From positions 1 through 40,672 of the forward strand of contig JALHSP010000003.1 of NCBI GenBank assembly GCA_022865305.1: a DNA stretch of 40,672 nt, written 5' to 3'. The DNA comes from Bacteroidales bacterium. GTDB taxonomy: Bacteria > Bacteroidota > Bacteroidia > Bacteroidales > VadinHA17. This document shows positions 15,604 to 16,498 of this stretch, piece by piece (the stretch's first letter is position 1; each line of letters starts with the position of its first letter). The notes beneath the pieces are model-generated. The model was not told the DNA's origin. It did no database searches and saw only the letters and a list, made by a program, of their open reading frames with translations. Made by a program: the position numbers and the translations under genes.

Positions 15604-15643
15604 AGCACAAAATTAACTTATGATCCTGAAACTCATGCATGTT

Positions 15644-15680
15644 TTAACTTTTCATTAACTCTTATTAACCTGAAATTAAC
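15644..15680. promoter_or_regulatory. Phased TTAAC direct repeats: likely response-regulator operator
   Basis: TTAAC occurs at 15644, 15655, 15665 and 15676, spaced 11, 10 and 11 bp, so all copies face the same side of the helix. OmpR/PhoB-family dimers bind such tandem half-sites. The block lies between the divergent kinase gene and the exported-protein gene, ending 21 bp before a -7 box. A further TTAAC at 15613 is out of phase. Confidence 0.65.
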
Positions 15681-15701: not shown

Positions 15702-15709
15702 TAATTTTG
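15702..15709 (+). promoter_or_regulatory. Candidate -7 box (TAATTTTG) of the exported-protein gene
   Basis: Matches TAnnTTTG, 27 nt before the ATG at 15737. No -33 TTG is seen at the right spacing. The TTAAC block would cover roughly -65 to -29, a typical activator position. Confidence 0.5.
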
Positions 15710-15736: not shown

Positions 15737-16498
15737 ATGAAAATAGTTTACAAAATGATGTTCCTATTCCTTCTTACCGGATCAATTCCTCTATCGTCGG
15801 CTTTTGGTCAGGAGAAGAAGAATGAACAGAAAATAAAAGTCATTATTGCCGACGAATCAGGAACTAAAACCGTCATTGATACAACTTTGACCGGTAATTC
15901 CATGCCTGAAACCATAACACTTAAAAACGGGAAAGTAATTTTTATCGGAAAACCCGGGACCAGCATGAGCCACAAAGAGTCCACGGGCGGGAAAGAGAAT
16001 GTAATCGTTACTGTAACATCTGATGAGGACGGGGAAAAGAGAAAAGAGGAAAGGATCATCATAATGAGCTCTGATTCTGTTGAATGGACCCTCTCATCAA
16101 TTGACAAGGGGAGAGATTTCTATGTTTACAGCCATTCAGAGAGTAAGGATGGGAAACCTTTAAAACATATTACAACAGCTTCAGCAGGAGCAGGATACGG
16201 TACATGGGCAGATTCAGCAGGTAAAAAAGTTATCATTATAAAAGATATAAAGGAAAAGGTCGGTAAAAACGGAAAAACCTTTGATATAATTGTTGAACCG
16301 GATGATATGGATACTGACACAGATGTTACAAAGTATGTAGTGGCAAAAGACGGGATTGTCGTAACAGTTGAATGTAATGATGAAGCCAGGGCAAAGGAGC
16401 TGATCAAAGAAATTGAAAGCAAACTTGATGTAAAAAGTGAGCAGGAAGGAAATAAAGAAGTCGTAAAAACTGAAACAAAAAAGATAATAAAAAAATAG
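15737..16498 (+). CDS. Exported hypothetical protein divergent from the two-component system
   Basis: A 253-residue protein of unknown family. A signal peptide is clear ('MFLFLLTGSIPLSSAFGQ'), so it enters the periplasm or beyond. The mature part is rich in Lys, Glu, Asp and Val/Ile, with alternating beta-like segments ('KIKVIIADESGTKTVIDTTL', 'VEWTLSS', 'KKVIIIKDIKEK') and a charged C-terminal helix ending in polylysine. No catalytic motif or T9SS tail is seen. The ATG at 15737 is preferred over an upstream start because it directly precedes the signal peptide and follows the -7 box. Its position suggests it is a target, and perhaps an accessory or feedback factor, of the adjacent kinase/regulator pair; this is inference. 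Confidence 0.75.
   Translation: MKIVYKMMFLFLLTGSIPLSSAFGQEKKNEQKIKVIIADESGTKTVIDTTLTGNSMPETITLKNGKVIFIGKPGTSMSHKESTGGKENVIVTVTSDEDGEKRKEERIIIMSSDSVEWTLSSIDKGRDFYVYSHSESKDGKPLKHITTASAGAGYGTWADSAGKKVIIIKDIKEKVGKNGKTFDIIVEPDDMDTDTDVTKYVVAKDGIVVTVECNDEARAKELIKEIESKLDVKSEQEGNKEVVKTETKKIIKK

Follow-up and report, generated by a model that had tools for sequence, protein, structure and literature searches.

Four TTAAC boxes, spaced about one DNA turn apart, separate a two-component kinase/regulator operon from a divergently transcribed gene in a Bacteroidales bacterium, and this block is a genuine control element whose type has been described before, very probably bound by the partner regulator of the kinase. 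We propose, with high confidence, that it comprises two tandem dimer sites, one for each of the two divergent promoters, and that the RprY-like response regulator of the adjoining operon uses it as its operator. All positions refer to the 40,672-nucleotide stretch of DNA that was analysed as a whole (hereafter the window), and the features discussed below are collected in Table 1.

Table 1. Operator, promoter and gene features around the TTAAC array, in window positions.
Feature	Position	Strand	Remarks
OmpR-type response regulator, 231 aa	13286..13981	-	Pfam Response_reg + Trans_reg_C; best NCBIfam model RprY, 278 bits
Sensor histidine kinase, 541 aa	13978..15603	-	HisKA, HATPase_c
Proposed -7 element of kinase promoter, TAATTTTG	15608..15615	-	28 nt from box 1, 4 nt from kinase ATG
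Fifth TTAAC	15613..15617	+	Overlaps kinase -7 element; out of phase with array
Boxes 1+2 (TTAAC at 15644, 15655)	15644..15659	+	Kinase-proximal pair, proposed dimer site for kinase/regulator promoter; pair kept upstream of related kinases
Boxes 3+4 (TTAAC at 15665, 15676)	15665..15680	+	Target-proximal pair, proposed dimer site for divergent promoter
Proposed -7 element of divergent gene, TAATTTTG	15702..15709	+	21 nt from box 4
Divergent gene, 253 aa from ATG	15737..16498	+	Apparent signal peptide (by eye)

A phased array between two promoters

The first-pass annotation, made from the sequence alone, had described four helically phased repeats next to a regulator of the OmpR family, and both statements hold. 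The boxes occupy 15644-15680 with the letters TTAACTTTTCATTAACTCTTATTAACCTGAAATTAAC, exact to the base, at spacings of 11, 10 and 11 bp, and the adjoining regulator carries the two Pfam domains of that family (Table 1). The array was the sole match in the window at up to three mismatches (mean over 100 shuffles, 0.01). Dinucleotide shuffling of the 133-nt intergenic region (n=20,000, either strand) yielded no four-box runs, no three-box runs and 64 two-box runs, and when five boxes were placed at random, a phased run of four arose in 45 of 200,000 draws. Direct repeats about one helical turn apart, the layout of a tandem OmpR/PhoB-family operator, are thus present beyond chance. We rejected RprY as the regulator's name, as its score against the equivalog model NF051850 falls below the curated cut-off of 370 bits, and refer to the protein as RprY-like only.

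Bacteroidota promoters carry a -7 element with the consensus TAnnTTTG, usually preceded by a TTG at -33, with 19-21 nt between the two. The kinase and the divergent gene are both preceded by TAATTTTG, which fits the -7 consensus. Under the proposed mechanism, the RprY-like regulator encoded next door would bind the block as its own operator, with boxes 1-2 and boxes 3-4 each taking up one dimer, both head-to-tail and facing the same side of the helix. Positioned immediately before the core promoter of the kinase/regulator operon, the kinase-proximal dimer would autoregulate that operon; the target-proximal dimer, which overlaps or adjoins the -33 region on the divergent side, would control the secreted protein, which may in turn feed back on the kinase. 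An earlier placement of the block at the activator position of the divergent gene survives in part: the array does stand just upstream of the divergent promoter, but its better conserved side is that of the kinase promoter.

The divergent protein itself matched no Pfam or NCBIfam family. A protein search with it listed 76 proteins (query included), among which every given name but one was 'hypothetical' and none carried a Pfam domain. Profile comparison did not settle homology to the distant divergent proteins, which scored no better than sequences shuffled outside the signal peptide, and the predicted structure was too poor for a fold search (mean pLDDT 41.5, pTM 0.28).

Conservation at related kinases and decay after target loss

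A kinase scan of named genomes, from which the best 80 loci were kept, left 78 to examine once two loci with no upstream sequence (L113, L116) had been skipped. Among these loci are records from Bacteroidales, Flavobacteriia, Cytophagales and Saprospiraceae; both orthologues and paralogues may be present, and the loci are related to one another, with all counts from them uncorrected for kinship. At least two phased GTTAA boxes were present in 61 of the 78, and in 58 of the 64 whose match starts at residue 4 or earlier; four boxes were present in 21 of those 64. Within the same set of best 80 loci, 51 of the 61 with a pair had TAnnTTTG no more than 40 nt from its kinase-proximal copy (none was found in 10), and the gap between pair and element was 27 nt in 25 loci, 28 nt in 25 and 26 nt in 1. 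Because this gap is kept even where the matched start is farther off (for example at L112), it belongs to the promoter and not to the gene start.

Across 52 related kinase promoters drawn from the best 80 loci, the first in-frame start codon followed the -7 box by 1-6 nt in 42; the frame is interrupted at L112 and at L114, where the start lies 7 nt after the box. So short a distance suggests that the kinase mRNA is leaderless or nearly so. The flavobacterial kinase promoters L138, L143, L145, L158, L159, L172 and L177 carry an extra GTTAA pair, 8 bp apart (GTTAAAATGTTAA), which lies just upstream of the kinase start and runs into the -7 element; it is perhaps a second, repressing site.

With the window included, 62 loci had at least two boxes: 22 with four, 1 with three and 39 with two (best 80 loci plus window). 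Of the 22 loci with four boxes, 19 had a second -7 element 21-23 nt past box 4 (none was found at L101, L139 and L150), and 16 had a divergent frame with a signal-like start. The 39 two-box loci include many flavobacterial ones, and at 26 of the 39 there was instead a gene of 192-199 codons pointing toward the kinase. Five two-box loci (L106, L114, L115, L144 and L178) nevertheless have a divergent frame with a secretion-like start, which counts against our proposal; by eye, box 3 is degenerate and box 4 still in place at L106, L114 and L115. Counts of -7 elements and boxes in this set, and in the set of close loci that follows, were made by hand.

The two promoters behaved differently where the target gene had been lost. 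We compared 26 close loci, taken from 28 rows after leaving out L097, which shares its genome with L098 and has just 28 nt of sequence downstream, and L101 (same array as L086, taken as a duplicate); L079 and L080, two places of one genome, were both retained. The target was intact in 11 of these loci and absent or a remnant in 15. Its -7 element was present at 11/11 loci with the target and at 6/15 without it, for a hypergeometric value of C(15,9)/C(26,9) = 5005/3124550, or about 0.0016, by hand arithmetic that ignores relatedness. The kinase -7 element, by comparison, was present at 10/11 and 13/15. Once the target is lost, its -7 element thus often decays and that of the kinase rarely does. 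At L105, the target and boxes 3-4 are gone, and the kinase pair and its -7 element are kept. Box 4 was present at 11/11 loci with the target and still at 12/15 without it, a persistence that counts against our proposal. Most likely, the kinase-side dimer site is widely conserved, and the target-side site is tied to a fast-changing secreted partner.

As for the sign of regulation, the sites are probably activating, because they stand at or next to the -33 position, where a TTG is seldom seen in the kinase promoters: only 1 of the 52 (from the best 80 loci) has one with a 19-21-nt gap to the -7 element, and six more have one at 22 nt. It seems somewhat unlikely that the regulator instead represses one or both promoters, for example by negative autoregulation of the kinase operon. 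There is precedent for such an arrangement, in that Porphyromonas gingivalis RprY binds its own promoter and is proposed, in the text available, to be a repressor (PMC3646045); likewise, among PhoP-bound genes with changed expression in a Riemerella anatipestifer phoP mutant, 34 went up and 16 down, according to the article text (PMC9603813). In the same mutant, however, the bat operon is reported as down without phoR (PMC9603813). In the loci studied here, moreover, the sites lie upstream of the -7 boxes and not over them, and the scarcity of a -33 TTG also speaks against repression.

RprY-like regulators and the reach of the pattern

That such boxes accompany this type of regulator, as had been supposed for the neighbouring gene, was borne out across genomes. 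Applying the RprY model to 14 genomes gave 81 OmpR-type regulators, which we split at a gap in score into 38 RprY-like proteins (at least 209 bits) and 43 others (at most 181 bits). By script, a phased pair was found near the operon start of 31/38 RprY-like regulators and 1/43 others, and the reversed pattern at 0/81; each of the 31 carriers had GTTAA oriented toward the operon. The lone pair among the others (L256) has the opposite orientation and lies 10 nt inside the reading frame as called. Re-reading by eye raised the RprY-like count to 35/38, as L201, L204, L207 and L224, where the script had left the kinase unlinked, do have pairs; it covered only the seven RprY-like misses, the 43 others being scored by script alone, and the script linked a kinase in 34/38 RprY-like cases against 11/43 others. 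The exact pair is absent at the operons of L199, L221 and L225, a point against our reading. An OmpR/PhoB-family regulator is thereby linked to the site both as the neighbouring gene and through the RprY-like association.

Within the genome of the window, a TTAAC/GTTAA pair or array stands at 4/4 RprY-like systems (contigs C160, C161, C120 and C66) and at 0/4 systems with other OmpR-type regulators. Two of these arrays resemble that of the window in lying between an RprY-like system's kinase and a small gene that is divergently oriented and begins with a signal-like sequence: one of four boxes at C120:12906-12942 (L190) and one of three at C66:124959-124985 (L191). The C120 system adjoins efflux-like genes.

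With four RprY-like systems sharing one box in a single genome, a motif match does not reveal which regulator binds, and this sharing weighs against assigning the array to its neighbour. We therefore considered that a paralogue (from C160, C120 or C66), or several in competition, might be the main protein at the operator, with the neighbour as one of many readers, and judge this rather improbable. In favour of a paralogue, TTAAC/GTTAA pairs accompany the operon of each of the four regulators, and their recognition helices are alike; the helix is well conserved across RprY-like regulators (consensus ARSMDVFITKLRKYL), and two of the four deviate from it at several places. Yet the array sits at the promoter of its own kinase and regulator and is kept there in related loci. 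Moreover, the sequence separating the boxes varies from one system to another but is shared by close relatives of this locus, as would be seen were each system to prefer its own variant. Assignment to the neighbouring regulator thus remains our preferred reading, and it raises a question of specificity: how four RprY-like regulators in one cell share one five-letter box.

Two or more TTAAC at 10-11 bp had been offered as a ready motif for finding the rest of the regulon, with the caveat that the pattern should not be equally common in background DNA. As a regulon finder the bare pair failed, and we dropped it: TTAACN{5,6}TTAAC occurred 35 times genome-wide against 49 for the reversed control, a lack of enrichment that counts against our proposal. 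Triples with up to two mismatches were dropped likewise (28 against 29 in the control). For both forms the pattern is therefore as common in the background; for exact triples it is not, with 7 overlapping matches at 5 places in the window's genome against 0 for the control. Across the 98 family genomes scanned, they numbered 356, the control 62, and they were present in 88/98 genomes against 20/98 (37 of the 62 control matches sit in two genomes).

Combining a pair with its distance to the -7 element succeeded where the bare pair had not. In the window's genome, the kinase-type pattern (a pair plus its distance to TAnnTTTG) gave 4 matches against 0 controls, falling at the kinases on C120, C160 and C161 and at a gene on C172 that by eye is membrane-fusion-like. 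The target-type pattern (a pair plus its -7 distance) gave 5 against 1, at the divergent genes on C161, C120 and C66, at moxR on C117, and on C23. We surveyed 247 genomes of the phylum, 61 from the window's class (taken as Bacteroidia) and 186 from others. The kinase-type pattern was present in 48/61 genomes of the class, with 96 matches against 22 control matches in 16 genomes, and in 18/186 genomes of the other classes, where about 9, counted by eye, had a control match. Many Bacteroidota two-component systems thereby gain a combined operator and promoter pattern that can be tested.

A chance origin of the array, from intergenic DNA rich in A and T, we take as refuted by conservation: bare pairs are indeed no commoner than the reversed control in the window's genome, but the shuffles, the exact triples, the fixed geometry in related loci and the 31/38 against 1/43 regulators all speak against it. 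A joint, class-wide reading goes further, and on it we are evenly divided. In it, RprY-like systems of Bacteroidia would autoregulate through a TTAAC dimer site that replaces the -33 element, 27-28 nt from the -7 element of a nearly leaderless kinase mRNA; the four-box form would add a second dimer site driving a secreted, rapidly evolving protein that partners the kinase, and one DNA word would serve several paralogous systems in each genome.

Known systems and candidate targets

The nearest described counterpart is R. anatipestifer PhoP (RAYM_RS09740, kinase RAYM_RS09735), like the window's protein an OmpR-type regulator of Bacteroidota in a kinase/regulator operon. In the text of PMC9603813, its DAP-seq motif has TTTAACA as the most conserved letters and is said to resemble the Escherichia coli ArcA motif, and the protein binds its own promoter and the moxR promoter; further sources on this regulator are PMC5399024 and PMC11834572. 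All four boxes of the window contain TTAAC and none the full TTTAACA: box 1 reads TTTTAACT, and an A follows no box. The article text available describes no phased repeat geometry, -7 distance or divergent four-box form for PhoP.

E. coli ArcA, also of the OmpR/PhoB family, has sites of between two and five direct repeats, 92 of them with three to five, and a centre-to-centre distance that is mostly 11 bp, as given in the text of PMC3798270. ArcA is a different regulator from a different phylum, and its spacing is mostly 11 bp where that of the window is 11-10-11; the same text mentions no set position with respect to a kinase promoter. RprY/RprX of Bacteroides and Porphyromonas (PMC3646045 and PMC6032018, each in the text available) provide the best NCBIfam model for the window's regulator, which at 278 bits lies farther from it than the RprY of the same genome on C160 (about 363 bits). 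The text available on P. gingivalis RprY and HaeR yielded no binding motif, and a TTAAC of Flavobacterium columnare was set aside as a parallel, as it sits in a CRISPR repeat. Box and layout are thus already known; in the open-access text covered, neither a constant spacing of operator and promoter nor a divergent arrangement of four boxes was found described.

Predicted members of the regulon in the window's genome are the divergent secreted proteins, moxR with its operon, and an efflux-adaptor-like gene. Recalling PhoP at moxR, three phased TTAAC and a downstream TAATTTTG precede a moxR/bat-like operon at C117:235097-235140 (L194). The kinase-type operator-promoter pattern ahead of the membrane-fusion (efflux adaptor)-like gene lies at C172:27035-27085 (L271) and marks it as a candidate envelope-stress target. 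By eye, a three-box array also precedes a radical-SAM activase-like gene at C1:127789-127815 (L193), and arrays resembling it recur in several genomes of the 98-genome family scan.
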